This document shows, piece after piece, positions 1 through 30,338 of a stretch of 32,679 nt of DNA. The stretch spans positions 1 through 32,679 of the IMG/VR virus record IMGVR_UViG_3300027754_002263. One strand, written 5' to 3'. The first letter of the stretch is position 1. Each line of letters begins with the position of its first letter. Source of the stretch: a virus. The notes beneath the pieces are model-generated. The model saw only the letters and a program-made list of their open reading frames with translations. It did not search any database and was not told the origin of the DNA. The position numbers were made by a program, and so were the translations under genes.

Positions 1-169
1 TTCCCCAAATAGCAGCACCAATCTCAGGTGACAGACCAATGTATGCGCTGACAACCGCACTGATTAGCAATGCGATTCCCATATGATTGAACACACCAAC
101 GAGATATGTTCTGAGACCCCAATCAATGACTGGTGCTGGGTATGCGTGTGATTCGTTTTGATAAGACAT
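1..169 (-). CDS. Bax inhibitor-1 (YbhL/TMBIM) family membrane protein, 5' part only
   Basis: The reading frame starts with ATG at 169, preceded by an AAGGAG ribosome binding site 6 nt upstream, and stays open to the window edge (56 codons). After a short polar, proline-containing N-terminus it reads DWGLRTYLVGVFNHMG, followed by a hydrophobic helix (IALLISAVVSAYIG). That arrangement of a GLR-Tyr motif, an amphipathic stretch and the first membrane helix is typical of the N-terminus of the Bax inhibitor-1/YccA-YbhL family of seven-helix inner-membrane proteins. Family members act as ion or calcium leak channels or as membrane stress modulators; the role in a phage is unknown. The gene follows the 195-residue gene by 3 nt, so it is co-transcribed. 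The rest lies outside the window. The family call is good for so short a piece but cannot be finalised without the remaining helices. Confidence 0.65.
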   Translation of the reverse strand, partial: MSYQNESHAYPAPVIDWGLRTYLVGVFNHMGIALLISAVVSAYIGLSPEIGAAIWG

Positions 170-172
170 GCC

Positions 173-760
173 TTACTCCTTGTTTAACCAAGGCTCTGAG
201 CCTTGCCCATAGTTTTCGGTCCATTCGAGAGGTTCTTTCCCCTCCAATGCTTTGCGGCAAGCCCACAATTGACAAACTTGTCCGCTTTTCTCGTCGCAAT
301 TCGACTCGCAAACGCAATTTGCATATTTCCGCAGCACCGCCTCCAGCTTCTGGATACGATCTGCGGCTTCACCACAATGGCAACGGTCCCGTTCTGTTGG
401 GAAGATACAGGTGTCTGCACGGCGTAGCCGCTTCACAAGATCATCAGTCATCTTTCCCCCTCCTGCTTTTCGGGCTTCATCCCGCTCAATGACGCATTCC
501 TTCAACGCCTCTCTAGCACCGAGGAAGCACTCCATTGTATGCTCCAATGCCGTCTCTAGCTTCTCGATACGCTCCTCTTTGTCGGCGATGGTCTGCTTCA
601 TTTCCATGATGCCGCCAGGCCCAGAAGTTAGTTGTTCGATACGCTCAACACCAACTCTGATAGCACCTATTGCGATATCATATTGCGATTGTAGTCGTTC
701 GTTTTCTTTAGCAACAGCTTCGGCAAATTTCTCAAGAGGCATTTCAAGTTTGTTACTCAT
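173..760 (-). CDS. Hypothetical coiled-coil, Cys-rich protein (195 aa)
   Basis: I chose the ATG at 760 (MSNKLEMP) because GGAG lies 9 nt upstream. The in-frame ATG at 769 overlaps that ribosome binding site. The first half is charged and helical (residues about 10-95, KENERLQSQ..., KEERIEKLETALEH), predicting a coiled coil. The middle carries DDLVKRLR followed by CHCGEAADRIQKLE, a signature I know from many small proteins of alphaproteobacteria and their phages. The C-terminal part has at least seven cysteines, including CVCESNC, which could bind a metal. No enzymatic motif is visible. It overlaps the upstream 75-residue gene by 8 nt and sits in the unit downstream of gp41. The function is unknown. 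Confidence 0.7.
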   Translation of the reverse strand: MSNKLEMPLEKFAEAVAKENERLQSQYDIAIGAIRVGVERIEQLTSGPGGIMEMKQTIADKEERIEKLETALEHTMECFLGAREALKECVIERDEARKAGGGKMTDDLVKRLRRADTCIFPTERDRCHCGEAADRIQKLEAVLRKYANCVCESNCDEKSGQVCQLWACRKALEGKEPLEWTENYGQGSEPWLNKE

Positions 761-980
761 TTTCGTCATCTCCAGTATGAATGGTAAGTGTTGCTTCTCT
801 CAGTCTATATCCACGATCATGCCAAGCCTGGATTTTCCTTGAGATATCTTTATCGTCATAGGTTGATCGGCATTGGCGTATCCATGATTCCATCGAAGTC
901 ACACCAAAGGTATGATGAGCATAATACCCTTTAGTGTGTGGGCAGTATATCACAAATCCTTTGATGTGAGTTGTCATCAT
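753..980 (-). CDS. Hypothetical small protein (75 aa)
   Basis: This is a small basic, aromatic protein (MMTTHIKGFVIYCPH...) rich in His, Tyr and Trp. Its start overlaps the gp41 stop codon by 4 nt (977-980), a typical translational coupling. The second codon is also ATG, so the start may be 3 nt later. It has no membrane segment and no recognisable motif. It lies directly after the promoter at 1088-1116 and is therefore the first gene of a small unit with the 195-residue protein and the Bax-inhibitor-like gene. I do not recognise the family. Confidence 0.65.
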   Translation of the reverse strand: MMTTHIKGFVIYCPHTKGYYAHHTFGVTSMESWIRQCRSTYDDKDISRKIQAWHDRGYRLREATLTIHTGDDENE

Positions 981-2359
981 GATACCTTCAGTTTCTTGAA
1001 CTTGTCTTTGTTAGAATAAGAGTTGTTTGTGGTGATTTGATCCGATTGCCCAGAATCCATGATATCGATCTGTGCTGATTGTTCTACATCATACAGTCTC
1101 ATCTTCGCTCTGTCAACCCCCACCACAAATCTTTTGTTGCTTGTTGGATCGTTGTAACGGTTCTTTAACTGCTTAATCATAATCTGCCCAAGCTTTTCCA
1201 ATGTCTCATTGGTCATCAAGGCAAACATCAAGTCTGCGGTGGCCGGGAGCCCGAAGGACTCTGAGGTGTCTGTGAGTTCGACATCTGAGCTGGCAAATCC
1301 GCTTCTGGTTGTTTGTGTTGCACTGAGTACTGGTACGTTGAATTCCACTGCCAGCCCTCGTAGCTCTTCCGCGATTGACTTGATGAGCGTGTAAGAGTTG
1401 ACATTCGATCCAGCTTTAATGCGAGAAGAACAGCAAATGTTAAGATAATCGATGTAGATAATATCAGGAACAAAGTTTCGTTTAAGTCTAAGCTCATTCA
1501 ACAGACTCCTAAAGTGGTTGTATCCGGCCGCAGCGGTTGGATATTCTTTGATGATTAACTTACCATGTGCTTTCGCCTTCGCAGTACTCATCTTCTTGTC
1601 ATACATATCTTTCGATAGCTTCTCAAGGTCATGGATATCAACATTGAGAAGATTGGCATCGATACGTTCTGCAATCTTCTCTTCTGACATTTCCATTGTT
1701 ATATAGAGTACGTTCAAACCAGCAGAGATGTTAGCCGCAGCACAGTGACACATGAACAAAGATTTACCGACACCAGTGCCAGCAAGAGCGATGTTCAGAG
1801 TTTTCTTAGGCAAACCACCCTTGGTGATCTTGTTGAAGAAATCAAGGTCAAAGGGCACACGCTCTTCAACGCGATGATAGAAATCGAAACGCTCATCTGA
1901 GTTTTCGAAGTAGTCATGCCCAATGTTAGGATCAAACGATACAGCCAAAGCTTCTGTAAGCAAAGACGGTATAGCACCCTTCTGTAAAGCATTATCTTTG
2001 TTGTTCATAATATCAATAGCCCTCATCATGGCCTGGTAGATTGCTTTCTCTTGACAAAAGTTCTCAGTGCTATCAATCAGCCATTGCTCATTAACTTCAG
2101 CTTGAATATTGAAAGAAGCTAGGGCGCTTTTACACGCCCTAGCCTCATCTTCTGTGACACCATTCATGGCGTCGATTTCAATTGTCAATGCTTCAATGGT
2201 TGGGCGCTGATTGTACTTGCTTACAAACTTGTCAATTTGTTTGAAGAGGATCTTGTCCTCTCCGTTGAAGTATTCATCTTTGATGAATGGAAGGGCCTTT
2301 CGGTGATAGTCTTCGTTGGCTATCAGGTTCCTCAGAATAGTTTTCTCCAGCGACATCAT
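977..2359 (-). CDS. 41: Replicative DNA helicase, T4 gp41-like
   Basis: This is a 460-residue DnaB-family hexameric helicase, the replication-fork helicase that in T4 works with primase gp61 and loader gp59. The N-terminal half matches T4 gp41 in layout: a short helical domain, then SFDPNIGHDY near 141-150 and VPFDLDFFNKITKGG near 168-182. Walker A is GTGVGKS (194-200), a DnaB-type motif follows (LYITMEMSEEKIAERIDAN), and Walker B is IYIDYL (about 301-306). Further hallmarks are SIAEELRGLAVEFNVPVLSATQ and ESFGLPATADLMFAL. The length is close to T4 gp41 (475 aa). The start is ATG at 2359 (a second ATG follows). Its first 86 nt overlap the end of the upstream 125-codon gene. The C-terminal tail is polar and Asn/Ser-rich, as in T4. 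Confidence 0.95.
   Translation of the reverse strand: MMSLEKTILRNLIANEDYHRKALPFIKDEYFNGEDKILFKQIDKFVSKYNQRPTIEALTIEIDAMNGVTEDEARACKSALASFNIQAEVNEQWLIDSTENFCQEKAIYQAMMRAIDIMNNKDNALQKGAIPSLLTEALAVSFDPNIGHDYFENSDERFDFYHRVEERVPFDLDFFNKITKGGLPKKTLNIALAGTGVGKSLFMCHCAAANISAGLNVLYITMEMSEEKIAERIDANLLNVDIHDLEKLSKDMYDKKMSTAKAKAHGKLIIKEYPTAAAGYNHFRSLLNELRLKRNFVPDIIYIDYLNICCSSRIKAGSNVNSYTLIKSIAEELRGLAVEFNVPVLSATQTTRSGFASSDVELTDTSESFGLPATADLMFALMTNETLEKLGQIMIKQLKNRYNDPTSNKRFVVGVDRAKMRLYDVEQSAQIDIMDSGQSDQITTNNSYSNKDKFKKLKVS
1088..1116 (-). promoter_or_regulatory. sigma70-type promoter inside the gp41 3' end
   Basis: On the minus strand TTGACA (1116-1111) is followed by a 17 bp spacer and TATGAT (1093-1088). 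It lies about 110 bp before the 75-residue gene and would drive that gene, the 195-residue gene and the Bax-inhibitor-like gene. The hexamers score 6/6 and 5/6 against the sigma70 consensus. Confidence 0.7.
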
Positions 2360-2651
2360 CTTTTCCCTCCAGCGTTTCTAAAATTAAATGATTGAGTATG
2401 ATACCGATATGTTCAGTAAATCTCTTATCATTCCTTAATGCAGTTTCGATATGATCTCCCATCTCAAGGAGTTCATAGATGAACTGAAGAACAGCCTCAC
2501 CATCTTCCTTCTCTTTCACACCAATCTTCACATAACGATATATAACATTTTTATAAGGGCCTGTCAAGACCTCAATTGGTATCGTGTCGCCAACTTCACC
2601 TGGCTTATGCAAGTCATCACGAAACCTATAGTCTTTACCTATATCAAGCAT
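2274..2651 (-). CDS. Conserved T4-like hypothetical protein upstream of gp41 (125 aa)
   Basis: The ATG at 2651 overlaps the UvsX stop by 8 nt. The protein begins [16 protein letters not shown] and has a small beta-rich core ([26 protein letters not shown], then [12 protein letters not shown]). It ends with a helical segment around [19 protein letters not shown]. This layout resembles a short uncharacterised protein I associate with the position just before gp41 in cyanophage-like T4 relatives. The last ~30 residues ([13 protein letters not shown]...) are charged, low in complexity, and encoded within the first 86 nt of gp41 in another frame, so they may be a dispensable extension. No catalytic motif is seen. 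Confidence 0.7.
2539..2567 (-). promoter_or_regulatory. sigma70-type promoter upstream of gp41
   Basis: GGTCTTGACA ends at 2562, followed by a 17 bp spacer and TATATA (2544-2539), about 180 bp before the gp41 start and inside the 125-codon gene. The GAGGTCT prefix before the -35 box is shared with the promoter at 7214-7242. Confidence 0.6.
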
Positions 2652-3699
2652 CTTCTTCCTCCACAGTTGTTACATTTGACTTACCATACAAGAACTCACC
2701 CTTGCAGGCCTCGTCAATCTGATCGAGGACTTCTTTAGTGAAATACTTTTCAGGATTCTTTTCAATCACCGATTCAAATACCTTATCACCATTAGGCATT
2801 TCGAATCGAGTTGACACCTTCTTGAAGATGCCGAACTTCTCAGCAAGGTCAATCAACCCATAGTAAGGATCGAGACCATCTGCATAGTTTAGCAGGGTTT
2901 CAACCTTCTTGTTCTCAATAGTGAGGCGAGCCTTCTTCAAGTTAGCCGTGATGATAGCACCAGTGATAGAGTTATCAGACTTATCTTTGTCTTTCTTCTT
3001 TGAGAGGAAAACAATAGACGAAGCTGCATATTCAAGCCCAGAACCACCACCCATCTTCTTCATAGGCACATACGAACCAATCACATCATACACATGGTTG
3101 GTCACAATCAATGGCACGTTCGCTTTACCTAACTTGAGAGTAAGTACACGGAAGGCGCCACGAATTAATTGTGAACGGGTCATGTCACGAGTGTCTTTAC
3201 CTTCTGCGATATCGGACATCTCTTTCTCAGTTGAGAGATTTCCGAGCGAGTCAAGCACAAACATCATTGGCAATCTATCACCATGCTTTTGCTCAAGGTA
3301 CTTGTCGAGAATTTTCACGGCCTGTGTGCGAAACTCCTGAATGGTAGCAACAGGCATGATAGCGATACGCTTAACATCAACACCACGATCTTGCAGCATT
3401 GACTTTGAGATAGCCGATTCAGATTCAAAGTAGAACACGAAAGCTTTCTCATTGTCACGCAAGAACTGGCGAACCATGTTCATTGCATAGAAGGTCTTAC
3501 CTGTCGAAGGTTCACCTGCTAGTGCAGTAACTTTGTTACCAGGTAATCCACCGTAGATGGATCCAGAAAGTAGAGCATTGAGACTATAACTACCAGTTCC
3601 AATAAAACTAGTAACGTCGCCAGCCTCCACGCCATCGTCAACAATCCCAGCATACTCATTGCCCGTTTCTTTCATTAGTGATGCGAATATATCTGTCAT
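2644..3699 (-). CDS. uvsX: UvsX recombinase (RecA family)
   Basis: This is a 351-residue RecA-type strand-exchange protein. In T4, UvsX builds filaments on ssDNA to drive recombination-dependent replication and repair, loaded by UvsY and working with gp32. Visible features are Walker A GEPSTGKT (62-69), the following catalytic region [14 protein letters not shown], a Walker B-like [16 protein letters not shown], an L1/L2-like loop area ([40 protein letters not shown]) and an acidic C-terminal tail (TTVEEEDA), as in T4 UvsX. The length matches the family (T4: 391, cyanophage relatives about 340-350). It lies 10 nt after the cupin gene. The promoter inside the gp43 3' end (4138-4166) would serve both genes. 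Confidence 0.95.
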
Positions 3700-3709
3700 A
3701 AGTTTCTCC

Positions 3710-4039
3710 TTATTGTCCCATTCTTACAATGTCGTTCTCTTCGGTGATCTCACCGCACTGAACTTCTATGATAACTAACGGGATGTTTGATATGTTGGTG
3801 ATTTTATGTACTGACAAAGGTTTCACTACAAAGGTATCACCTTGTTTTACCCTAAACTTCTTATCATCAAGAATGACCTCACCAGCACCTTGTGTGATGG
3901 CCCATGTCTCTGACCTATGTATGTGATATTGAAGACTGATAGACTTGTCAGGTTCGATGGTCAGCTTCTTTACTTTATACCAACGCCCTTCTTCGATAAC
4001 TTCCCAGTTTCCCCATGGTCGTTCACATGTTTCTCTCAT
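3710..4039 (-). CDS. Stand-alone mannose-6-phosphate isomerase-type cupin
   Basis: The 109-residue protein matches the C-terminal cupin domain of type II phosphomannose isomerase/GDP-mannose pyrophosphorylase (ManC). It starts with [13 protein letters not shown], the usual 'RPWG' entry, followed by [19 protein letters not shown]. The metal-binding cupin motif is [13 protein letters not shown], then [16 protein letters not shown]. The full ManC would be about 470 residues; here only the cupin is present, with no nucleotidyltransferase domain. It may interconvert fructose-6-P and mannose-6-P or act as another sugar-phosphate cupin. Its ATG overlaps the gp43 stop codon by 4 nt, so it is coupled to the polymerase. 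A functional link to the GDP-mannose-type enzymes in the sugar operon is plausible but inferred. Confidence 0.85.
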
Positions 4040-6588
4040 GAAAAGAATGCCTCCAAGCTACTCACTTCTTCTGTCTTCCAACCAATGCTGTCCAAGACGA
4101 TCTTCAAAGGTTCGACAAAAGACTTTTCATATTGAGTATTATAGTCGATATACTTATGGATGTCAAGCTCTTTTGGTATTTCATTGGGGAAAGAAACGAT
4201 GTTAGATTGGATCGTGTTTGGTTCTTTGAGATAGATGAACTTGATCTTCTCGCCTTCCTTGATAAGCTCATACTTTTTTTCAAGCTTGTGTTTTCTCAGC
4301 AAGTTATTGTAGACGAGAGAACCACGAACATGGATTGGAGTACCTTTCTCAAAGATAGATCCGTTCTTACCACCATAGGTCTTCAATCCATTCACACCGC
4401 GAGGGAATGCAATGTTGACAGGATCCTGTTTCTTGAATTCTTGGCGAAACTCATCGATGAACTTGATGACTGCGGCCTGATCTTTGTTGAAGATGATATC
4501 AATAGCCTCCCACAACTTCTCTTTACAAGCAGCAGGAGTTGATGACTTAATCATCTCAAGACCCATGACCTTCAGCTTCGGCTTTGCATACTGGACTCCT
4601 TCGTTGTTATGCACACGAAGGATATATCTCTTCTTTGCAGTCCAGATACCTTTATCACACAAAGCTTCACGCTTCATCATCATCTTTTGGGCAAAAGCGT
4701 TAGTGTAAGTAGCAAGCTCTCCGTAAGATTTATCAATAAACGGTTGAATCTTAGCCTCACAGATTTTATCCATGAAGGCGATGACTTCATCTGTTGTACA
4801 AGAAGGATTCGTTTCTTTAATAGTTTTACTGACCAATTTATCAAGTGAAAGGTAGATTGAGTCCGTATCGCTTGCAATAACATAGTCTTCACCTTTAGTT
4901 TGTAGAATCTTGTTCATGTAGACGTTTAGTTTGTTTTCAATCCAGCGAATCGAAAGCTGGCCCGCAGTAGTGATACCAGAAGCTTGACGAATATCAAAGA
5001 AGCGGAAGTACTCATTACCCAAAGCACCGTAAGCTGAGTTCAGGCAAACCTTCTTAGCAAGCTGCAAGTTATTGTATCTTGCAATTCTCTTTTCAATTTC
5101 AAATCTAGCATCAGGGTCGCTTACTAGTTCAAGTTCTTTCTTGGCCGTAATAGCTTTCTTCTTGTAGACTGTACGGTCATTGTACATAGTCTCCATCATT
5201 TCAGGAAGAAAACCTTGCTTGTTTGTGCGAAAGAACTGCCCGTTAGGTGTTAGGGTGTGGCCAGCCAACCCATCTGTAGAAATAGACTGCCCAAGAAGGC
5301 TGTCAACATCAACATTACAAAGAAGGATATTGCGATGAGCATCTTCATAATCTTTTGGCTCCAATAGTGTTTCAGGTGAGATATTATATTGCATGATAAG
5401 ATGCGGATACAGGCTGTTCAAATCGAATGAAGCAACCCAGTGATGAAGCCCAATGATAGGGTCTTTCACATATGCACCAACATAGGCCTCAGACTTGCTA
5501 TGTTGTGTGATAGGCGGAAGAACCACATTACGCACTCGCAGATGATTATAGATGAGAGCATCCCACATACGAACCTGTGCGAACACATCATCATAGTTGG
5601 TCTTACTATCATACGCGAGAGTAAGGGCCAGCTCAATCAGTTTCAACTTATCATCAAGTCGTTCAATCAGTTCAACGTCCTTGATATTGTACTCAATGAA
5701 TAGCTGATAGTTGTCTTTGTAAAGTGTGTGAAGGTTACCATACTCTTCATAAGATAGCTTACGCTCACCAAGTTCTGCATTGGCGATGCTATCAAGTTTG
5801 TATGATGCTTGAGACTTACCTTCAGGAGCATATCGCTGATACAGGTCAATGTAATCAAGCACGGAGATACCGAGCATGATATAGGTCTTGAACTGACGGC
5901 CAGGCCCAAAGTTTACATCTCGCTCATTGAGGATACCCCAAGGCGAAAGACGACGAGCTTCATCCTCACCAAACAAACGCTTGATACGGTTCACAATGTA
6001 AGTAACATCGAAGAGCTTTACATTCCAGCCGGTGATGATATCGGGATAGTTACCAGTCCACTCATCAATGAACCTCTTGATGAGATCGAACTCATCACGG
6101 CACTTGATATACTTCACATCTTCACGGGTGTTGTTGAATTCGCCACACCCAAATACCATGAACTTATCACCCATCTTATAGGTGATAGCTGTGATAGGTT
6201 CAGATGCAGTTGCAGGTTCCGGGAAACCATTCTCAGAACCCACTTCGATATCGATGTTACAGATTTTGATATGATCGAGGTCCCAATCAACTTCGTTGGG
6301 ATACTCGTCGGCGATGAAGGCATATTCATACTTCTGGTTGCCATAAACCTTGAGGCCCTGCACATCATCATACTGCTTAACAAAATCACGACAGTCACGG
6401 ATTGTGCCAGGTTTAATCTCTGACACATGCTCACCCGTAACGGTTGTGAACTTAGTAGGTTTTGATGAGGGAACAAAGAGTGTTGGATGATAATCTGAGC
6501 GGAGTCTTACTCTCCGCCCATTATCAATACCACGATACAAGATTTTAGAACCATAGACCTGAACATTCGTATAGAATGATTTCGTCAT
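4036..6588 (-). CDS. 43: Family B DNA polymerase with proofreading exonuclease, T4 gp43-like
   Basis: This is the replicative phage DNA polymerase, 850 residues and apparently full length (T4: 898). The exonuclease motifs are intact: DIE (113-115), NVKLFD (189-194) and YNIKD (300-304). The polymerase motifs are motif A DLNSLYP (389-395), motif B KKVCLNSAYG (512-521) and motif C SDTDS (573-577) with its catalytic aspartates. The C-terminus ends in SLEAFFS. Such a short hydrophobic tail is where T4 gp43 binds the clamp gp45, so I infer the same here. The ATG overlaps the Sm-like gene's stop by 1 nt. Two promoters upstream (6685-6713 and 7214-7242) could transcribe it. Confidence 0.97.
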   Translation of the reverse strand: MTKSFYTNVQVYGSKILYRGIDNGRRVRLRSDYHPTLFVPSSKPTKFTTVTGEHVSEIKPGTIRDCRDFVKQYDDVQGLKVYGNQKYEYAFIADEYPNEVDWDLDHIKICNIDIEVGSENGFPEPATASEPITAITYKMGDKFMVFGCGEFNNTREDVKYIKCRDEFDLIKRFIDEWTGNYPDIITGWNVKLFDVTYIVNRIKRLFGEDEARRLSPWGILNERDVNFGPGRQFKTYIMLGISVLDYIDLYQRYAPEGKSQASYKLDSIANAELGERKLSYEEYGNLHTLYKDNYQLFIEYNIKDVELIERLDDKLKLIELALTLAYDSKTNYDDVFAQVRMWDALIYNHLRVRNVVLPPITQHSKSEAYVGAYVKDPIIGLHHWVASFDLNSLYPHLIMQYNISPETLLEPKDYEDAHRNILLCNVDVDSLLGQSISTDGLAGHTLTPNGQFFRTNKQGFLPEMMETMYNDRTVYKKKAITAKKELELVSDPDARFEIEKRIARYNNLQLAKKVCLNSAYGALGNEYFRFFDIRQASGITTAGQLSIRWIENKLNVYMNKILQTKGEDYVIASDTDSIYLSLDKLVSKTIKETNPSCTTDEVIAFMDKICEAKIQPFIDKSYGELATYTNAFAQKMMMKREALCDKGIWTAKKRYILRVHNNEGVQYAKPKLKVMGLEMIKSSTPAACKEKLWEAIDIIFNKDQAAVIKFIDEFRQEFKKQDPVNIAFPRGVNGLKTYGGKNGSIFEKGTPIHVRGSLVYNNLLRKHKLEKKYELIKEGEKIKFIYLKEPNTIQSNIVSFPNEIPKELDIHKYIDYNTQYEKSFVEPLKIVLDSIGWKTEEVSSLEAFFS
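4138..4166 (-). promoter_or_regulatory. Consensus sigma70 promoter inside the gp43 3' end
   Basis: TTGACA (4166-4161), a 17 bp spacer and TATAAT (4143-4138) match the sigma70 consensus exactly. It sits about 100 bp upstream of the cupin and uvsX genes, which it would transcribe apart from the polymerase. Confidence 0.8.
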
Positions 6589-6911
6589 TACATTCCTGGA
6601 AGTATGAGTTTAGATGAAGGTGCAACGATACCACCAAACATGGTGTTATATTGGTTGATAAACTCCTGCACCGGCTTCATTTGTACTATAACATGGGCCT
6701 TGTGAATTGTAAAGACCTTGTCATCCGACCATTCGACCCATGGAGCAAAACCCACGGTCGGTGTCGTCACACCATTCTTACTAGGAATTACAACGACACG
6801 AACAGGATTCTTGATTGTATATTCTTGACTGGTTGCGTTTGGCTCTGAGATGACTTCTACCATCACCTCTTCGCCGGTGATAATTTTAAAAATGAGTAGA
6901 TTGGCAGCCAT
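6588..6911 (-). CDS. Sm-like (LSM-fold) phage protein
   Basis: The 107-residue protein begins MAANLLIFKIITGEEVMVEVI, a strand-turn-strand pattern (LxTGEEVxxEV) like Sm1 of Lsm/Hfq proteins. It continues with YTIKNPVRVVVIP and a second beta-rich part. Similar small 'Sm-like' proteins of unknown role are common near gp43 in cyanophage-like T4 relatives. RNA binding is possible but not shown. The gene overlaps the 73-residue gene upstream by 1 nt and gp43 downstream by 1 nt, and it contains the promoter at 6685-6713. The fold call rests on pattern, with no single diagnostic residue. Confidence 0.6.
   Translation of the reverse strand: MAANLLIFKIITGEEVMVEVISEPNATSQEYTIKNPVRVVVIPSKNGVTTPTVGFAPWVEWSDDKVFTIHKAHVIVQMKPVQEFINQYNTMFGGIVAPSSKLILPGM
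6685..6713 (-). promoter_or_regulatory. sigma70-type promoter inside the Sm-like gene, upstream of gp43
   Basis: AAGGTCTTTACA (-35 TTTACA at 6713-6708) with a 17 bp spacer and TATAGT (6690-6685). It is about 100 bp upstream of the polymerase start. The AAGGTCT prefix is identical to that of the gp45 promoter at 25093-25121. Confidence 0.65.
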
Positions 6912-7132
6912 TAGTCTTGCAACTCCATCATATAATCATAAACACCTACCGTAACCCACTTCTCAGGAATGAGAGTAACACGGCTACCAGATTCCGTGCT
7001 GTAGGTATACTTGTTCTCATAGTCAATGATCTTTGCGATCCTCTCCCACTTGCCATCATAGGCTCTCTGCTTGAATTGTGTCTCAAGCACGTTAAGCCCA
7101 TACTCATAATTTTTCATCAAGTTACCTTTCAT
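6911..7132 (-). CDS. Hypothetical protein (73 aa)
   Basis: A small protein beginning MKGNLMKNYEYGLNVLETQFKQRAYDGKWERIAKIIDYENKY and ending YDYMMELQD. It mixes helix and strand and has no Cys, membrane segment or known motif. An internal ATG (MKNYEYG) 15 nt downstream is an alternative start. It overlaps the 95-residue gene by 4 nt and the Sm-like gene by 1 nt, so it belongs to the same unit running into gp43. I do not recognise it. Confidence 0.6.
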   Translation of the reverse strand: MKGNLMKNYEYGLNVLETQFKQRAYDGKWERIAKIIDYENKYTYSTESGSRVTLIPEKWVTVGVYDYMMELQD

Positions 7133-8081: not shown

Positions 8082-8292
8082 CTCGGCACCCTACGTTATT
8101 ATCTATATCATCAAGAGCCATCATAGCATTGATAGAATCCATCAACGTCTTCTGAAGCCCAACTCTAGCAAAGACCTTGATAGCCTGCTCATCCATATCG
8201 ACAATGACAGTTGCAGTACCATCATCGTTAGAGATAACGTCATTCACGGTGATGAAACCACCTCCGAATGCGATAGGTTCATTCTCATTCAT
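8071..8292 (-). CDS. Hypothetical protein (73 aa)
   Basis: A small acidic protein, MNENEPIAFGGGFITVNDVISNDDG..., with alternating strands followed by a helix (LQKTLMDSINAMMALDDID). It begins 20 nt after the tRNA-Gly 3' end. Its start has the context GAGGCTATATT-ATG, an element also seen before dUTPase and gp45. No known domain is recognised. Confidence 0.6.
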   Translation of the reverse strand: MNENEPIAFGGGFITVNDVISNDDGTATVIVDMDEQAIKVFARVGLQKTLMDSINAMMALDDIDNNVGCRDES

Positions 8293-8311
8293 AATATAGC
8301 CTCACATGTTT

Positions 8312-8386
8312 TGGAGCGGGTGACTGGATTCGAACCAGCGACGAACAGCTTGGAAGGCTGACACTCTACCCCTGAGTTACACCCGC
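8312..8386 (-). tRNA. tRNA-Gly (anticodon TCC)
   Basis: The 75 nt minus-strand sequence folds into a full cloverleaf. The acceptor stem GCGGGTG/CACCCGC is perfect. The D stem is ACTC/GAGT, the anticodon loop CTTCCAA (anticodon TCC), the T stem GCTGG/CCAGT with one G-T pair, and the T loop TTCGAAT. The 3' CCA is encoded. The first anticodon-stem pair is a T-T mismatch. It reads GGA and GGG. It sits inside the small-gene operon, 7 nt after the 135-residue gene, so it must be processed from an mRNA. Confidence 0.95.
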
Positions 8387-8393
8387 AATTGTT

Positions 8394-8801
8394 TTACTTA
8401 GCCTTCTTGCCCTTCTTGGCCTTCTTGACTATCTCTTTGATCTCTTCTTTAACTTCTTTAATTTCCTCGACAACCACCTCGATCTTTTCTTCGACCTTGG
8501 CAGCTTCTATCTTGACTTCTTCAACAACTGGCTCAACAGTAGCTTCGATCTTTGCTTCAGCTTCCATCGCCTTAACAAAGGCAGCCTCTGTCGTAGCATC
8601 GATATCAGCCTTGATATCTTCTCTTGCCTTATCGATAACTTCTTCGGCCTTAGCTTCAGTCTTAGCCACAATCTCTTCAACAGCCTTGACAGTCTCGGCC
8701 AAACCTTCAGGGTTTGTCATATCTTCCGTTGCAGGTCTCATCGCCTTTAAGACGTAATACCCAACGACGCCAAGTATCAATACACCAACAATAAATTCCA
8801 T
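8394..8801 (-). CDS. Membrane-anchored Ala/Glu/Lys-rich coiled-coil protein
   Basis: The N-terminus is a single hydrophobic helix (MEFIVGVLILGVVGYYVL, residues 1-18). After MRPATEDMTNPEG comes about 100 residues built almost only from Ala, Glu, Lys, Val, Ile and Asp (EEIVAKTEAKAEEVIDKARED...). The tail is strongly basic (KKAKKGKKAK). This predicts a signal-anchored long helix or coiled coil. Composition resembles phasin/apolipoprotein-like helical proteins, but such bias makes homology unreliable. It follows the 77-residue gene by 12 nt and precedes tRNA-Gly. A role at the host inner membrane is a guess. Confidence 0.75.
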   Translation of the reverse strand: MEFIVGVLILGVVGYYVLKAMRPATEDMTNPEGLAETVKAVEEIVAKTEAKAEEVIDKAREDIKADIDATTEAAFVKAMEAEAKIEATVEPVVEEVKIEAAKVEEKIEVVVEEIKEVKEEIKEIVKKAKKGKKAK

Positions 8802-8813
8802 TTCATTTCTCCT

Positions 8814-9047
8814 TTAGATCAATCTACTCAAACCATATAACTCAGGATAGATGCGTTCAAGTACAATGAGAGCATCTTTCTTTCTGCCGTTCCTGAAGTG
8901 CCATACAACGTCTTCGATTTCTTGATCGAGATGGTCTTCTGACTTCTTCGTGATAAGATAACCACGATCTTCAAGTTCCTCGATAAGATCATCATCTTCA
9001 AAACTGTCGAGATCCTCTTCATCAACCCAGACTTCTTTGTACGGCAT
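8814..9047 (-). CDS. Hypothetical acidic protein (77 aa)
   Basis: A small acidic protein: MPYKEVWVDEEDLDSFEDDDLIEELEDRGYLI, then a helical charged part (SEDHLDQEIEDVVWHFRNGRKKDALIVLERI). It starts 4 nt after the epimerase stop codon. The charge pattern is compatible with a DNA-mimic or adaptor protein, but nothing diagnostic is seen. It would be the first gene read from the promoter at 9080-9108. Confidence 0.65.
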   Translation of the reverse strand: MPYKEVWVDEEDLDSFEDDDLIEELEDRGYLITKKSEDHLDQEIEDVVWHFRNGRKKDALIVLERIYPELYGLSRLI

Positions 9048-9051
9048 CCGT

Positions 9052-9990
9052 TTAGCTCCTCATTGACTTTATGATGGACACCATATCATGCTCTGGCTCA
9101 AATGTCAATACTTCTTTCATACGAGTAACATCAGAAACCAAACGATCCACATCACCAGGTCTACGATCAAGGAACTCAAGGTCGAACTTTCGTCTTTCGA
9201 TCTTAGATATGGTGTCAATTACTTCCAGTACGGAATAACCACGCCCTGTTCCTATGTTGCAAACAATTCCTTTATTGTTCTTTTCCATATACTCATAAGT
9301 TTTGATATGAGCCTTACAGATATCCACTACATGTATATAGTCACGAACGGCCGTGCCATCTGGTGTATCGTAATCGTTGCCGTAAATTTTTGCCTCGTTT
9401 GACTCCATAAGGATAGGAATCAGATGCGTCTCTGGATCATGCTCTTCGTATAAGTTAGCCTCTACATTACGCCCTGCTGCATTGAAGTATCGAAGAATGC
9501 CAACCTTCATCTTCTCATCTTTTGAAATATCAAGGAGTACGTCTTCTACCATGCTTTTGGTCTTCGCATAGATGCTTTTTGGATTCTTAGTCATATCTTC
9601 AGATAGTGGTACTTTACTAGGTCCATACACAGCACAAGTACTGGAGAAAATGAAATGCTTGGCTCTATGAAGCATCATATTTATCAATCTCAGAGAACCA
9701 CCAACATTGTTCCAGTAATACTTTCTCACCCACACCTCACCCTCTTCAACAGAAGATAGCGCAGCAAAATGAAATACACAATCGAAACCGATGTTATAAT
9801 CCATCAACATAGAAACATTGCTCATCGATAAGTCTATGGTATAGAAACGATCATATAGATGTTCAAGATGATCTTTTTGATCTTTATCAAGCCCAAAGAT
9901 TATGCAATCAGGATAGGCTTGGCGTAGTTCGTAGCACATATGAGAACCAATGTATCCATTGGCCCCCGTCACAAAAAATGTTTTAGGCAT
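9052..9990 (-). CDS. galE: NAD-dependent sugar epimerase, GalE-like
   Basis: An extended short-chain dehydrogenase of 312 residues. GANGYIG (9-15) is the NAD-binding motif, the catalytic triad region is FSSTCAVYG with YAKTK (Y141, K145), and GRGYSVLEVIDTI and RRPGDVDRLVSD fit UDP-glucose/UDP-N-acetylglucosamine 4-epimerases. I placed the start at the ATG at 9990 (MPKTFFVTG), 10 nt after AGGAAG; the ATG at 9999 is the alternative. It overlaps the preceding transferase gene by 8 nt. It is the last gene of the sugar operon. The exact sugar nucleotide (UDP-Glc/Gal or the N-acetyl form) cannot be read from the sequence. Confidence 0.88.
   Translation of the reverse strand: MPKTFFVTGANGYIGSHMCYELRQAYPDCIIFGLDKDQKDHLEHLYDRFYTIDLSMSNVSMLMDYNIGFDCVFHFAALSSVEEGEVWVRKYYWNNVGGSLRLINMMLHRAKHFIFSSTCAVYGPSKVPLSEDMTKNPKSIYAKTKSMVEDVLLDISKDEKMKVGILRYFNAAGRNVEANLYEEHDPETHLIPILMESNEAKIYGNDYDTPDGTAVRDYIHVVDICKAHIKTYEYMEKNNKGIVCNIGTGRGYSVLEVIDTISKIERRKFDLEFLDRRPGDVDRLVSDVTRMKEVLTFEPEHDMVSIIKSMRS
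9080..9108 (-). promoter_or_regulatory. Possible sigma70 promoter inside the galE 3' end
   Basis: TTGACA (9108-9103), a 17 bp spacer and TATGGT (9085-9080, 4/6). It would drive the 77-residue gene, the 135-residue gene and tRNA-Gly. The -10 box is the weakest of the set. Confidence 0.45.
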
Positions 9991-10783
9991 ATGGCTCATA
10001 CTTCCTTCTAGGCATGAATTCACAAGCTAAGTTAGATTGCGGCGGTGGTTGTTCTGCATTCTTCAGAGAAAGAATCTTAGCATCATCCTTACAGCAAATC
10101 CACATCTCATCACGAAGACGCCAAGTAAGTGTCTGCATGATAGGATGCCTTTGCAACTCACCTTTCCACCAGTCATCATTGCGAATGTCTGGAATGGTGC
10201 GGATGTATTCAGACTTTGCCCACCAATAGTTACCACTGAAATGCTTCATAGGCCAAGGCGCATAGTTAGCTGAGACCACATCATGGTTCTCAAGTAATCT
10301 ATTACACTCTGGCCATCTCTCAACCACCGCCCACTCAAGAAACTTCCTCCAGTAAAAGTAGTTCTTAAACTCATTGAACTTACCTGCACGGAGATGCCTC
10401 TCATATGAGGTGACGCCCTTGGCGTGCATATACAAGAAGTGAGCATCTTCACGGAGAGCATGGTCATAGATTAGCTGAAGTGTGGCATACTCGGTGATTG
10501 GGCGAGTGTTTCTGCCATATAGATCGGAGTCGAGAGAATGAAGATCATTGTCACCTTTGAAACGGTCTTCAAACTCTACGACTTCGATCTTGTTGCTCAA
10601 AGAACTTGCGAGGCCTTTTGCTAGAGCAACATTTGCTGGTTTACCTACAACTACAAGATAGAACTTCTCTGCTGCATCAATAAGCCCGTGGTCTTCACAC
10701 ATCTTGTATTGTTCAAGAAGATAGTTAGACCATGCAGCATGTTCATCAGGAAGATAGAGATGATAGTAGATATACTTTTTCAT
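9983..10783 (-). CDS. Putative glycosyltransferase-like protein (266 aa)
   Basis: The protein starts MKKYIYYHLYLPDEHAAW and contains YLVVVGKP, FLYMHAKGVTS, NHDVVSANYAPWPMKHFSGNYWWAKSEYIRTIP and DEMWI. A segment with 'HAKG' and 'HFSGNYWWA' occurs in uncharacterised glycosyltransferase-like proteins of LPS/capsule clusters. I place it there on pattern and operon position, not on a clear DxD motif. The gene overlaps the methyltransferase gene upstream (ATGA, 4 nt) and galE downstream (8 nt). It has no membrane helix, so it would be cytoplasmic. Confidence 0.6.
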   Translation of the reverse strand: MKKYIYYHLYLPDEHAAWSNYLLEQYKMCEDHGLIDAAEKFYLVVVGKPANVALAKGLASSLSNKIEVVEFEDRFKGDNDLHSLDSDLYGRNTRPITEYATLQLIYDHALREDAHFLYMHAKGVTSYERHLRAGKFNEFKNYFYWRKFLEWAVVERWPECNRLLENHDVVSANYAPWPMKHFSGNYWWAKSEYIRTIPDIRNDDWWKGELQRHPIMQTLTWRLRDEMWICCKDDAKILSLKNAEQPPPQSNLACEFMPRRKYEPYA

Positions 10784-17857: not shown

Positions 17858-18609
17858 GCCTTTAGCCAGGGAAATTCATTACCATAGATTACAGCCATAC
17901 TCTCATTTCCCTTTTCAAAGAAGTTGGCTGTTACTGAGTTTGGATTGCCATCAAGACGATAACAAAGTGTATGCTTACCATTCGTATCCCACTTGCAGTG
18001 GTCTTTGACGTTATAGAAGAAGTTGCGATCACCGCCCCAACCATGATGCCAGAACTGCGACACCTTGATTAGAAACTCACGGCGAAATGCAAATGAGGAT
18101 GTGTCGATGAGAAAGCTTTCTTCATTACCATGTGTGAAGTAGATAGGCCACTTACCAAGGCTCTCACAGTTGTCATCACAGAGATAGTTCTTATTCTCAT
18201 CATAGATTTGACGGAGTGAGTATGCAAACTTGTTTGTCTCTAATACCTTGACGAGGCTTTCGACATGATCTGGTGCATACCAGTTGTCTTCATCGAGGAA
18301 GAAGATATAGTCAGAGTTGATTAGATGTGGATAGGCTGCATAGATGCGGTGACCATAGAAACCATCACCAACTTTACCTGTATTGTATGGTGATGTTGTC
18401 AGAGTTACATGATTTAGCAAATCATCATCGTATGCGAAGTTATGCAAGAATTTTTTTTGATGTTCTGGACCATCAACGACAATTAGATGGTCGATATGAC
18501 CATACGTTTGATTCTTGATGCTCAAAATGGCATCAAGAACCTTAGGTGATCCGATTGTGGGGGTAATGACCGTTACGGTCTTGGGTTCTGTTACTATGTT
18601 GTATTTCAT
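17854..18609 (-). CDS. Family 2 glycosyltransferase
   Basis: From the ATG at 18609 (TGATG overlap with the upstream stop; AAGG 9 nt upstream) the protein is 251 residues. It opens with VTVITPTIGSPKVLDAILSIKNQTYG, the GT2 nucleotide-binding strand, and IDHLIVVDGP. The metal/donor motif is YIFFLDEDNWYAPDH (about 99-113, D-E-D in place of DxD). SFAFRREFLIKVSQFWHHG follows. It would be a cytoplasmic inverting transferase. It is the first enzyme gene of the sugar operon in transcription order. Confidence 0.85.
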   Translation of the reverse strand: MKYNIVTEPKTVTVITPTIGSPKVLDAILSIKNQTYGHIDHLIVVDGPEHQKKFLHNFAYDDDLLNHVTLTTSPYNTGKVGDGFYGHRIYAAYPHLINSDYIFFLDEDNWYAPDHVESLVKVLETNKFAYSLRQIYDENKNYLCDDNCESLGKWPIYFTHGNEESFLIDTSSFAFRREFLIKVSQFWHHGWGGDRNFFYNVKDHCKWDTNGKHTLCYRLDGNPNSVTANFFEKGNESMAVIYGNEFPWLKA

Positions 18610-18758
18610 CACCAATGCCTTATCACGCCAGCTATAATAAACATGTTCGTTAGTATATAGCTGAGAATTATGACCGTTCGGATGATAGCGACTCTATCAG
18701 CCTCAATGTTGTTCTTACCGTTCTTTTCACCTAGAGCCTTAGCCCACAGTCTCCACAT
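18609..18758 (-). CDS. Small single-helix membrane protein (49 aa)
   Basis: Starts at ATG 18758 (MWRLWAKALGEKNG), 9 nt after GGAG. It has a charged N-terminal part (NNIEADRVAIIRT) followed by one hydrophobic helix (VIILSYILTNMFIIAGVI) and ends RHW. I recall similarly short 'WRLWAKALGE...VIRHW' proteins from T4-like cyanophages, which supports a conserved but uncharacterised membrane peptide. A longer frame from 18809 would absorb a hairpin and the ribosome binding site, so I reject that start. Confidence 0.72.
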   Translation of the reverse strand: MWRLWAKALGEKNGKNNIEADRVAIIRTVIILSYILTNMFIIAGVIRHW

Positions 18759-18784
18759 AGTATAGTATTCTCCACATAAAGGCA

Positions 18785-18806
18785 AGAGGGAGATTTCTCC
18801 CCCTCT
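18785..18806 (-). terminator. Hairpin after the 59-residue gene, possible weak terminator
   Basis: On the minus strand AGAGGGGGAGA pairs with TCTCCCTCT across a 2 nt loop, with two unpaired Gs in the long arm. TGCCTTTATG follows, a poor U-tract. It sits 5 nt after the 59-residue gene, between it and the 49-residue gene. It could lower read-through into the sugar operon or stabilise the Hsp20 mRNA end. Confidence 0.4.
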
Positions 18807-18811
18807 CATTC

Positions 18812-26922: not shown

Positions 26923-28101
26923 TCAGAAGGCAACCTCTGCGGCCTTCTTGAGTTCGTTCATCTGTTGAGCAGGATCAAGAGGATTGATCGTCTCGTCCAG
27001 CTTCTTGTAGAGGTCCATGAAACCAGTCTTGGTATCAACGTCGAAGCGGTTCAGGCAAAGCTCAATAGCCTTGTCGCGCTTTTGCCCAAAGATCACGAAG
27101 GCTTCGCAGATGTGGACGAGACGGCGAGTGGAGATAATCTCACTCACAGCACCTTCATAGAAAGACTTGCGGATTACGTCGGCCCACTGCACAAGCTTAT
27201 CGGTGAAGCCAGTATCTTCAATACCGTTAGCACCAAGCACATTGTTCAGGATCTTTTGCTCTACCTTCTGAGCAGGATATTCTTGTTCCATGGTGATGGA
27301 GAAACGCTCAAGAAAGGCTTCGTTCATCACGTTGGTGCCAATGAAGCGCCCATCATCTGAACCCTTGCCCTTGGTGTTTGCGGTAGCAATCACATTGAAG
27401 CCAGCAACAGGGGTGATAACCTTGTTGATCTTTTTGAGATAGATCGGCTTGCCTTCAAGGACAGGCTGGAGACACATAAGCTTGTTAGAGCCAAGGTCAA
27501 CTTCATCGAGGAGCAGGACTGCACCACGTTCCATAGCCACAACAACAGGACCATTCTGCCAGACGGTACGACCATCGATCAGGCGGAAGCCGCCGATCAG
27601 GTCATCTTCGTCGGTTTCGATGGTGATATTGACACGGACCATTTCACGCTTTTCAGCGGCGCAGACTTGCTCTACCATCATGGTCTTGCCGTTGCCGGAC
27701 AGACCAGTGATATACATGGGATAGAATTTGTTGGACTTCACGATGGTACGAACATCTGCAAAGTTACCGAAAGGTACATAGCCAGAGGCCTTAGCAGGCA
27801 CAAGGTCAACAGGCGCAGACACATTCAACTGAACCGCTGCGGCTGCCATAGCAACCGCCATCTCAGGCATCACGGGTGCAGGCGGCGCCTGCTTGGTTAC
27901 CGGCTTTGCAGTACCAAAAGAAGCGATACTGTAAACACCGCGAGCAATGCGGTATTGCTTATCATTGACCAGCCAATTCGGATAATCAAGGTTGCGTGAT
28001 TCACAAAGCTCAATCACCATTGGGCGAGTGATGGAGTCAATGTTTCCGTAAGCATTACGGGCGGCTTCAATGAACTGCGAACGGTCAGTGATCTTAGGCA
28101 T
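26923..28101 (-). CDS. cobS: CobS-like AAA+ ATPase (MoxR type)
   Basis: 392 residues. An N-terminal helical segment (MPKITDRSQFIEAARNAYG...) is followed by a Pro/Ala-rich linker (about 66-104). Then comes the AAA+ domain: Walker A GLSGNGKT (133-140), LLLDEVD (196-202), sensor-1 region FNVIATANTKGKGSDDGR, and EAFLERFSITMEQEYP. CobS is the AAA+ subunit of aerobic cobaltochelatase, and CobS-like genes are a signature of T4-like cyanophages. No CobN subunit is in the window. The upstream partner is a VWA protein, as in MoxR/CobS-CobT pairs, so a protein-remodelling role is equally possible. A promoter and terminator flank it. Confidence 0.88.
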   Translation of the reverse strand: MPKITDRSQFIEAARNAYGNIDSITRPMVIELCESRNLDYPNWLVNDKQYRIARGVYSIASFGTAKPVTKQAPPAPVMPEMAVAMAAAAVQLNVSAPVDLVPAKASGYVPFGNFADVRTIVKSNKFYPMYITGLSGNGKTMMVEQVCAAEKREMVRVNITIETDEDDLIGGFRLIDGRTVWQNGPVVVAMERGAVLLLDEVDLGSNKLMCLQPVLEGKPIYLKKINKVITPVAGFNVIATANTKGKGSDDGRFIGTNVMNEAFLERFSITMEQEYPAQKVEQKILNNVLGANGIEDTGFTDKLVQWADVIRKSFYEGAVSEIISTRRLVHICEAFVIFGQKRDKAIELCLNRFDVDTKTGFMDLYKKLDETINPLDPAQQMNELKKAAEVAF

Positions 28102-28135: not shown

Positions 28136-28164
28136 ATTATAGAGGAGTAGGGTGGCTTTGTCAA
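28136..28164 (-). promoter_or_regulatory. Consensus sigma70 promoter for cobS
   Basis: TTGACA (28164-28159), a 17 bp spacer ending in CTC and TATAAT (28141-28136). The TGA inside TTGACA is the stop codon of the CobT-like gene. It lies about 40 bp upstream of the cobS ATG. Confidence 0.82.
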
Positions 28165-28171
28165 GCCACCC
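28150..28171. repeat. Perfect inverted repeat over the cobS -35 box
   Basis: The arms GGGTGGCTT and AAGCCACCC (9 bp) flank GACA, so the -35 box and the cobT stop codon lie at the centre of the repeat. There is no U-tract. It could be an operator, or an RNA hairpin at the cobT mRNA end. Confidence 0.7.
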
Positions 28172-30338
28172 GCTTCTTGTCCGAGGCGATCTTATCGATG
28201 AACCGCTTCAGGAGAATACGGTTGACAGCTTTCTTTTCAGAAAACTTCATAAATTCCTTAGCAATCTTTGCTTTTGTCATGGTACTGTTGACTTCAAGCT
28301 TGTTTTCCGTATCTTTCATGGCCGGAGTATTGATGATGTAGTAATCATCATAACCATGGTTGGTCACAGGAATAAACTTGTTTTCATTCCAAGATTTCAC
28401 CATTGCAGCACGAAACTTTTCTTCGATAGCATAGCCGTAGAATTCATGGACAACACGGTTGGAACTTCTGTCATGCAGATAGAAGCCAATCAGGTTGCAA
28501 CCAGTACGATCCTTGAGTATCTTGAGAAGGTTGATTGTAATCTCATTGGCAGAACTATAGATATGATCTGTGAGATAGTAATCTTTCTTCATCACCTTGT
28601 CTTGGATGATATATTTGGTATCACCAGTCCAGCGGTTACCGATATCTGTACCTGTGACACCTTTGATGGTGTTCGAACCACCATCGGTCAGAAAGATCAC
28701 ATTCACAATCTGCACCTTGCTACGAGCCTTGAACTGGTTGACCAGTTGCTCGGTCACAACGATAGCACCGTTGAGCGGTGTACCACCCATAGGTTCCATG
28801 TGAGAACCAGACTTCGACATGGCCCAAAGTAGGTTATAAGCATTATTCAGTTCTGTGACATTCATGCGAGACGAAAGGATATTCCGCATGGTGAGATTTT
28901 CAAACTGAAGATCGCCTCGAAGCATTTCCCAAGAAGAACCTTTCGATACAGTATGATCGCGGAAAGTGTAGACTTCAAAAGGAATCTGTGTACGCTTACA
29001 GAAAGAGGTCAAGCTGATAAGCTGCTTGATGGTATCTCTCAGAGAACTGTGCATCGAACCAGACCAGTCAAGGATCATCACGAAGCCATGGTTCTTGCCA
29101 GTAGGCACAACGGCCTGACGACGAAAGATGTCTTCGTTATACTTGTAAGAATGGATCTTATTCGTATCAAGTACACCAGTTTTTGCAATCGAAATCCGCG
29201 AGAAAATATCCGCAGACTTCTTCATTTCAAACTCTTTCACCATGAAGGAGATTGATGCGTTTTCTTCGGTGCGGAACTTGGTCACCTCAGCTTGAATTGT
29301 AGGGAACCAATTTCTGTCGGCTGAATTATGCCCATTATAATAATTGAAGTTTTCTTTGAGGAAGACCTTGTAGTCATCGACAATCTTGGAAACGACAGGC
29401 TTAGGCACACCAACATACTGGTACTTTGTGGTACCGTTTGCGACCAGTTCACTCTGCTTTTGTTCCCAAGCTTTCTCAGTCTTGGACTCAGGAATGAAGT
29501 CACTCGAACCAGCGCCGTTTGAGGTCTGGTCTTGGTCATCACCTTCGCCGTCTTCTTCATCATCGGTCTGGTCATCAGAGGCCGAGATATCACCTTCGCC
29601 TTGATAACCTTTCGAACCTTCGCTTTCTTCATCATCATCTTCAAATTCATCGAAATCATCGCCGAAGTCTTCACCCTCATCTTGGTCACCATCACCAGAA
29701 CGAACGGCTTCCATCTGGATCTTTTGGTCTTCTTCACCGCGAAGCTTGGCATATGCAAAGACTTCTTCGGTAATCTTGACGACCTCTTTGAAGGTCTCGG
29801 CCGCATCGATACGCTTTACGAAGGCATTTTCTTCAGGAGAGAACTTGACACCGAGCGCAACACCACCTTTGAAGTAGATGTTAACACGGTCGATGAAGGA
29901 GTAAGAATTGATATCCTTGTTTGCAGTGCCGAAGAAATCACGGTCCATGAGTTCTTTGTAGCCGACAATGTAATTGCGGCGAGCGCCAGGATAACGACGC
30001 TTCTGACGCTTATCAATACGGGCATCCTCGATCACATTGAGGAAACCTTTGACAGCCATCTGGTTCTGTTTGCTGGTCGTGCCATATATCTTAGTGGCGA
30101 TATCTTTGATGGCATTCGTCCAGCCATCGCAGGGAGTATCAAGAGCATGGCCGACCTCATGTACGACCAGCATGTCTTCAAGGTCATCTGAGATACCTTG
30201 CCAGATAGGCAAAGTGAGGACGCGGTTCTTAACGTCAAACCATGCAGTCTGAGCGCCAGCCAGTTTTTGCATGGTGATGTTTTCCGTAGCCAACAGCTTG
30301 GCTAACACTGATTTGGATTGGCTTGCGATTACCGTCAT
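28161..30338 (-). CDS. CobT-like VWA protein with an HExxHxxD motif
   Basis: 725 residues. HEVGHALD (60-67) is an HExxHxxD zinc-binding motif in a metalloprotease-like N-terminal domain. About 215-290 is extremely acidic (GEDFGDDFDEFEDDDEESEG...), as in CobT. A von Willebrand A domain follows, with MIDAS LDWSGSMHSS near 421-430 and FLTDGGSN near 549. In cobaltochelatase, CobT pairs with CobS; here the CobS gene lies directly downstream. The start has GGTTCTAGGA upstream, and the stop is inside the cobS promoter. Peptidase activity is possible but unproven; cyanophage homologues have been called 'peptidase'. Confidence 0.85.
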   Translation of the reverse strand: MTVIASQSKSVLAKLLATENITMQKLAGAQTAWFDVKNRVLTLPIWQGISDDLEDMLVVHEVGHALDTPCDGWTNAIKDIATKIYGTTSKQNQMAVKGFLNVIEDARIDKRQKRRYPGARRNYIVGYKELMDRDFFGTANKDINSYSFIDRVNIYFKGGVALGVKFSPEENAFVKRIDAAETFKEVVKITEEVFAYAKLRGEEDQKIQMEAVRSGDGDQDEGEDFGDDFDEFEDDDEESEGSKGYQGEGDISASDDQTDDEEDGEGDDQDQTSNGAGSSDFIPESKTEKAWEQKQSELVANGTTKYQYVGVPKPVVSKIVDDYKVFLKENFNYYNGHNSADRNWFPTIQAEVTKFRTEENASISFMVKEFEMKKSADIFSRISIAKTGVLDTNKIHSYKYNEDIFRRQAVVPTGKNHGFVMILDWSGSMHSSLRDTIKQLISLTSFCKRTQIPFEVYTFRDHTVSKGSSWEMLRGDLQFENLTMRNILSSRMNVTELNNAYNLLWAMSKSGSHMEPMGGTPLNGAIVVTEQLVNQFKARSKVQIVNVIFLTDGGSNTIKGVTGTDIGNRWTGDTKYIIQDKVMKKDYYLTDHIYSSANEITINLLKILKDRTGCNLIGFYLHDRSSNRVVHEFYGYAIEEKFRAAMVKSWNENKFIPVTNHGYDDYYIINTPAMKDTENKLEVNSTMTKAKIAKEFMKFSEKKAVNRILLKRFIDKIASDKKRVA

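Follow-up and report, generated by a model that had tools for sequence, protein, structure and literature searches.

The gene truncated at the left edge of the window (the whole stretch of viral DNA analysed here, 32,679 nucleotides in length) is, judged by its relatives, the start of a YbhL-type Bax inhibitor-1 (BI-1) protein, and comparison among the phages that carry it indicates that BI-1 is a captured and maintained phage gene. The protein itself is unremarkable within its known family, and BI-1 proteins range from bacteria to humans. The phage lineage, maintained and exchanged, appears to be unreported in the open PubMed Central literature (the scope of our search). With a probability of about 0.5, phage BI-1 would act as a YetJ-like, pH-gated cation leak that steadies the inner membrane of the infected cell. 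The features of the window that bear on the gene are the following:

1..169, minus strand: 5' part of the BI-1 gene (YbhL-type, 56 codons), truncated by the contig end and assigned through full-length relatives
176..181, minus strand: AAGGAG, the ribosome-binding site for BI-1, read from the sequence
173..769, minus strand: ORF upstream of BI-1, 198 amino acids, coiled-coil-like, without an accepted family
753..980, minus strand: 75-amino-acid ORF, PHROG 31704, function unknown
977..2359, minus strand: gp41-like replicative helicase (T4-like phage context)
2644..3699, minus strand: UvsX-like recombinase (context)
4036..6588, minus strand: T4-like DNA polymerase (context)

Read on the minus strand from 169 to 2, the window yields a stop-free translation of 56 residues whose ATG is the complement of 167-169 and whose reading frame leaves the contig end. 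This ATG lies three bases after the stop codon (173-175) of the 198-amino-acid upstream ORF, and the AAGGAG site (complement of 176-181) abuts that same stop codon. An AAGGAG site also precedes BI-1 in the viral contigs L001, L004, L006 and L010, and pieces related to the 198-amino-acid ORF precede BI-1 in other phages too. The gp41-type helicase, UvsX and T4-like DNA polymerase upstream of BI-1 mark the contig as DNA of a T4-like phage. Its polymerase is at most 51% identical to those of typed phages, the nearest of which are cyanophages. Despite this affinity, psbA was found in none of the 21 BI-1-bearing records tested for marker genes (six of them at least 130 kb in length), which argues against cyanobacterial hosts. 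An Rfam scan gave two tRNAs and no other match in the window, and no match in L001 or L004.

Taken by itself, the 56-residue fragment matches no family: family profile searches gave no Bax1-I match, and a Pox_A14 match (E=0.036) was rejected as it was under the cut-off and covered one hydrophobic helix. The record has no DNA to the left of window position 1; intact copies were sought in other viral contigs, and claims on the C-terminal part of BI-1 rest on these full-length relatives, the window contributing 56 codons. The same BI-1 start is present in 13 other viral contigs at 83-100% identity. Eleven of these encode a full-length BI-1 of 229-233 amino acids, and two end within the gene. One of them, L001, contains the whole BI-1 gene, and its DNA is 95.4% identical to the window over 1-238 and 95.3% identical over 566-5421. 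The 233-amino-acid protein of L004 matches PF01027 (Bax1-I) from end to end (profile positions 1-207 of 207, E=2.1e-59, 201.2 bits against a cut-off of 34.1), and Bax1-I is also matched by two further relatives scanned with it and by five more divergent viral proteins. The original prediction had placed the truncated start in the YbhL/BI-1 family; the near-identical full-length copies, which supply the sequence beyond position 1, bear this out. Neither PHROGs nor PADLOC has an entry matching the full-length protein, and NCBIfam gave below-cut-off matches only. An identity as YccA was rejected (37.5 bits against the 353-bit cut-off of the NF007765 equivalog model). The Protein Data Bank sequence relatives listed at E<0.01 are B. 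subtilis YetJ entries only, with a best E of 4.8e-12.

The terminal position of BI-1 on the contig could point to contaminating cellular DNA or a chimeric end instead of a phage gene, and of the 14 records matched in the phage collection, 13 are contigs without annotation that could themselves be host DNA. We consider this explanation extremely improbable, as the junction between the upstream ORF and BI-1 recurs in L001, L002, L004, L006, L008, L010 and L011, BI-1 is internal to four contigs of 139-173 kb with the T4 major head gene (G001-G004), and the viral BI-1 copies form a clade of their own (described below). The phage location claimed at the outset is likewise upheld by the near-identical copies in other viral contigs.

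A wider profile search gave 42 viral BI-1 loci, 11 of which lie in contigs of the first search, and both searches combined give 44 distinct viral contigs with BI-1 relatives. The T4 head gene gp23 was found in five of the six BI-1-bearing records of at least 130 kb and in 7/21 overall (one via a short piece); the remaining large record, G012 (183 kb), gave no match to gp23, and its T4-like replication genes are distant only. Among 50,697 phage records, Bax1-I has 14 matches, comprising 13 unannotated contigs, which we guess may be host DNA, and one jumbo phage; BI-1 was not found in the typed T4-like phages of this collection. The prediction that a phage copy is unusual therefore holds for typed phages and fails for the present group, with its 44 viral contigs. 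BI-1 was also absent from the 80 other T4-like helicase loci listed, within flanks of up to 6 kb (these are fragments, and the window's nearest relatives are not among them), and from 20 of the larger contigs among them (likewise fragments, taken from the matches listed); this is weak evidence that BI-1 is not a core gene of the wider group. L203:3683-4354, which is gp332 of the 440-kb Salicola phage SCTP-2 and is annotated as a "hypothetical protein", matches Bax1-I (E=5.1e-28). This protein differs from those described here in its very long, separate branch and in having Glu/Ser at the Asp pair discussed below.

To examine the origin of the gene, we used a 90-row maximum-likelihood tree in which 39 viral and 45 alphaproteobacterial rows were joined by E. 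coli YbhL, YbhM and YccA, SCTP-2 gp332 and two records from faeces. Viral L002, L003, L008, L011 and L133 (near-copies or short pieces) were left out of the trees; the cellular rows, none of them cyanobacterial, were 16 of the 80 best loci of one search and 29 of the 30 of another. The 39 viral rows form a single clade (100/99) within the alphaproteobacterial proteins in this tree, in which the bootstrap had not settled and rooting is rough, with YccA, YbhM, SCTP-2 and one faecal row on very long branches. In a tree without outgroups, the 39 viral and 45 cellular rows split at 100/98. E. coli YbhL falls, with a short branch, within the alphaproteobacterial rows, and YccA is remote. The closest cellular branch to the viral clade consists of two contigs of metagenome-assembled genomes named Rickettsiales (91/89), with proteins 52-58% identical to the viral ones; this is no host assignment. 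The top cellular identity is 58% both among the 80 best loci (50-58%, from a pattern-based scan with one genome per species) and across 398 Pseudomonadota genomes, 305 of which had a match, and other viral clades are 45-66% identical to the window's clade. The phage proteins thus share whole-length homology with E. coli YbhL and the alphaproteobacterial Bax1-I proteins (PF01027), and differ from them in forming a separate, well-supported viral clade of T4-like phages. This distinct clade, at no more than 58% identity to cellular proteins, points to an old capture and not to a recent piece of host DNA, and BI-1 was probably captured by T4-like phages once, from an alphaproteobacterium-like donor.

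Since its capture, BI-1 has evidently been retained: dN/dS was 0.015-0.123 in all 13 countable pairs of viral BI-1 copies (the fourteenth pair was saturated), indicating that the gene is maintained in phages under strong purifying selection. Such selection implies that the protein does something for the phage and is worth having during infection. As the bacterial role of BI-1 is poorly understood, a phage lineage under selection of this strength offers a way to ask about it. The gene also seems to have moved. Between the window and L008, the BI-1 start is 95.7% identical, compared with 83% and 79% for replication genes. The phage of L007 (G003) is more distant still in its replication genes, with a helicase 62.5% identical to that of the window (synonymous sites saturated), a polymerase 44% identical and a UvsX 31% identical, and yet L007 BI-1 shares 92% identity with L004 BI-1 and has a dS of 0.41 from that of L001. 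Exchange of BI-1 between phage lineages is the simplest reading of these values, because BI-1 is more alike between phages than the adjacent replication genes are, and because the likeness extends to synonymous sites, which conservation of the protein by itself would not maintain.

An AlphaFold2 model of the L004 protein, built from a 39-sequence alignment (25 viral and 14 cellular), has seven long helices (residues 17-46, 59-76, 83-101, 110-133, 141-161, 166-196 and 200-229) and a mean pLDDT of 81.6; residues 131-170 are weaker, with pLDDT of 61-71 (means of ten-residue blocks). YetJ is the top fold match, with a Foldseek E of 4.8e-4 and a structure-alignment Z of 16.7 over 178 residues, and the next different fold has a Z of 7.7. 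Matches to MgtE, rhodopsins and TRIC (VIA-align, Z<8) were taken as common helical arrangements and set aside. In a pairwise alignment (numbering offset 5), Asp171 and Asp195 of YetJ align with D186 and D217 of the phage protein, and Arg60 of YetJ, a helix 2 residue bonded to the Asp pair there, faces a gap in a poorly aligned region. Position 186 is Asp in 38/39 viral rows and Glu in the other, and is Asp in 45/45 alphaproteobacterial rows; position 217 is Asp in 23/39 viral rows and Asn in 16/39, with 28/45 and 17/45, respectively, among alphaproteobacterial rows. The window's own clade has Asp/Asp at 186 and 217, positions that fall in the last two helices. The seven-helix layout and C-terminal Asp pair expected of the missing part of the gene are thus both present in its full-length relatives, the helices as predicted in the L004 model.

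Published work describes YetJ as a Ca2+ leak that depends on pH and is switched by its Asp171/Asp195 pair (PMC7349521, PMC9206080), and it is the fold and Asp pair common to YetJ and the phage protein that suggest the leak reading. Under this model, phage BI-1 would be inserted in the host inner membrane, where it would form a pH-gated leak for cations (Ca2+ and/or H+) switched by Asp186/Asp217 and would add to the YbhL of the host or overrule it; the membrane of the infected cell would then stay stable until the phage lysis proteins act. The two proteins differ in that their identity is about 24%, Arg60 is unmatched in the pairwise alignment and ion conduction by the phage protein is putative. 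The captured human cytomegalovirus (HCMV) homologue US21 is reported to have lost activity with D201N (PMC10470750); given the Asn at the second Asp position in many viral and alphaproteobacterial rows, a Ca2+ leak is not assumable for all members. It also counts against the model that a BI-1 is present in 179 of the 190 genomes sampled from the alphaproteobacterial class, so that the model does not account for the need of a phage copy.

US21 and the orthopoxvirus protein GAAP resemble phage BI-1 in being captured BI-1-family proteins kept by a virus, as reported for them (PMC10470750, PMC5451544), and differ in belonging to viruses of eukaryotes and acting on endoplasmic reticulum or Golgi membranes. 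That eukaryotic viruses have captured the same family (PMC10470750) allows testing of whether bacterial viruses use BI-1 alike.

The main rival to the leak model is modulation of FtsH, whereby phage BI-1 would bind and slow this membrane protease, so that membrane proteins of the phage or host would be spared in the infected cell. Restraint of FtsH-type proteases is a second activity reported in the superfamily: E. coli YccA is described as an FtsH substrate that inhibits the degradation of other substrates, and mitochondrial TMBIM5 has been proposed to inhibit the FtsH homologue AFG3L2 likewise (PMC7876416, PMC9379554). A non-channel role would agree with the lack of the second Asp from 16 of the 39 viral rows, and FtsH was found in none of the 21 BI-1-bearing records, so the target would be host FtsH. 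YccA belongs to the same Pfam family as the phage protein and its model gives the weak match noted above; this score is, however, far under the YccA cut-off, the phage protein is YbhL-like (with YbhL on its short branch and YccA remote), and YccA has Glu/Ser at the two positions that are Asp/Asp in the window's clade. A score and residues that are not those of YccA may still leave room for a YccA-like action of phage BI-1, and we regard FtsH modulation as a credible but rather unlikely alternative.

The leak model leaves lysis itself to other proteins. The original suggestion was that BI-1 might modulate host membrane stress or lysis timing. As a lysis-timing protein, it would be an inner-membrane channel that works as, with or against a holin, perhaps together with an outer-membrane pore formed by phage CsgG/CsgF. 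CsgG was found in 13 of the 21 BI-1-bearing records, including all six of at least 130 kb, and for methylophage Melnitz a role of CsgGF in the regulation of lysis has been proposed (PMC9004378). The distance between BI-1 and csgG is not fixed, however, being about 3 kb in G005 and about 49 kb in G002. The late-promoter word occurs upstream of BI-1 with at most one mismatch in 3/37 loci, none of them exceptional relative to shuffles (a rule was used to choose the start sites, in a few cases apparently wrongly), and thus a late-promoter signal was not seen. Usual holins are small, unlike a protein of 233 amino acids and seven helices. Among the 50,697 phage records, CsgG has seven matches, including Melnitz (4) and HTVC008M (2), which are phages of OM43 and SAR11 bacteria, respectively, and no Bax1-I match was found in these CsgG-bearing records. 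A part in lysis timing is accordingly improbable.

The csgF/csgG genes of pelagimyophages and Melnitz are comparable to BI-1 in that, going by the published descriptions, they are envelope genes with an alphaproteobacterial affinity and belong to T4-like phages whose hosts are marine heterotrophs, and differ in that curli genes give an outer-membrane pore; the main texts of these descriptions make no mention of "Bax". A far-reaching scenario, which we offer as a long shot, would join the two: one old capture would have given rise to a BI-1 cassette traded among phages with very different replication genes, and BI-1 in the inner membrane would form, with the CsgGF pore, a system controlling ions across both membranes that keeps the infected cell intact and determines when it lyses. 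Such a system would parallel, in prokaryotes, the TMBIM viroporins found in viruses of eukaryotes. In L004, CsgF, CsgG and a curlin-repeat protein are encoded at 8225-10142, and PHROGs lists this CsgF and CsgG merely as unknown function.

Several other genes were observed in the window and its relatives. A DruA-like protein, a homologue of a component of the Druantia defence system, is encoded in the window at 31710-32666 (minus strand; PF14236 and PADLOC DruA, both E=9.6e-22), in a contig of T4-like phage character. An AAA_5 ATPase (PF07728, E=5.4e-19) is located at 26923-28101 (minus strand), beside a 725-amino-acid protein at 28161-30338 (minus strand) that has no Pfam match at E 0.001. A 66-amino-acid ORF with one hydrophobic stretch is found at 18609-18809 (minus strand), and many BI-1-bearing phages share a 49-55-residue part of it (65-78% identity), often within a few kb of BI-1. 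Downstream of BI-1 in L001, two ORFs (5833-6276 and 6674-7123) have MNRR-type, export-signal-like N-termini; the first ORF also has relatives on the downstream side of BI-1 in other contigs, and for its copy in L004 neither PHROGs nor Pfam gives a family. Some BI-1-bearing records are rich in tRNA genes, with 32 in G003, 27 in G018 and 24 in G012 (counted without the last 3 kb).
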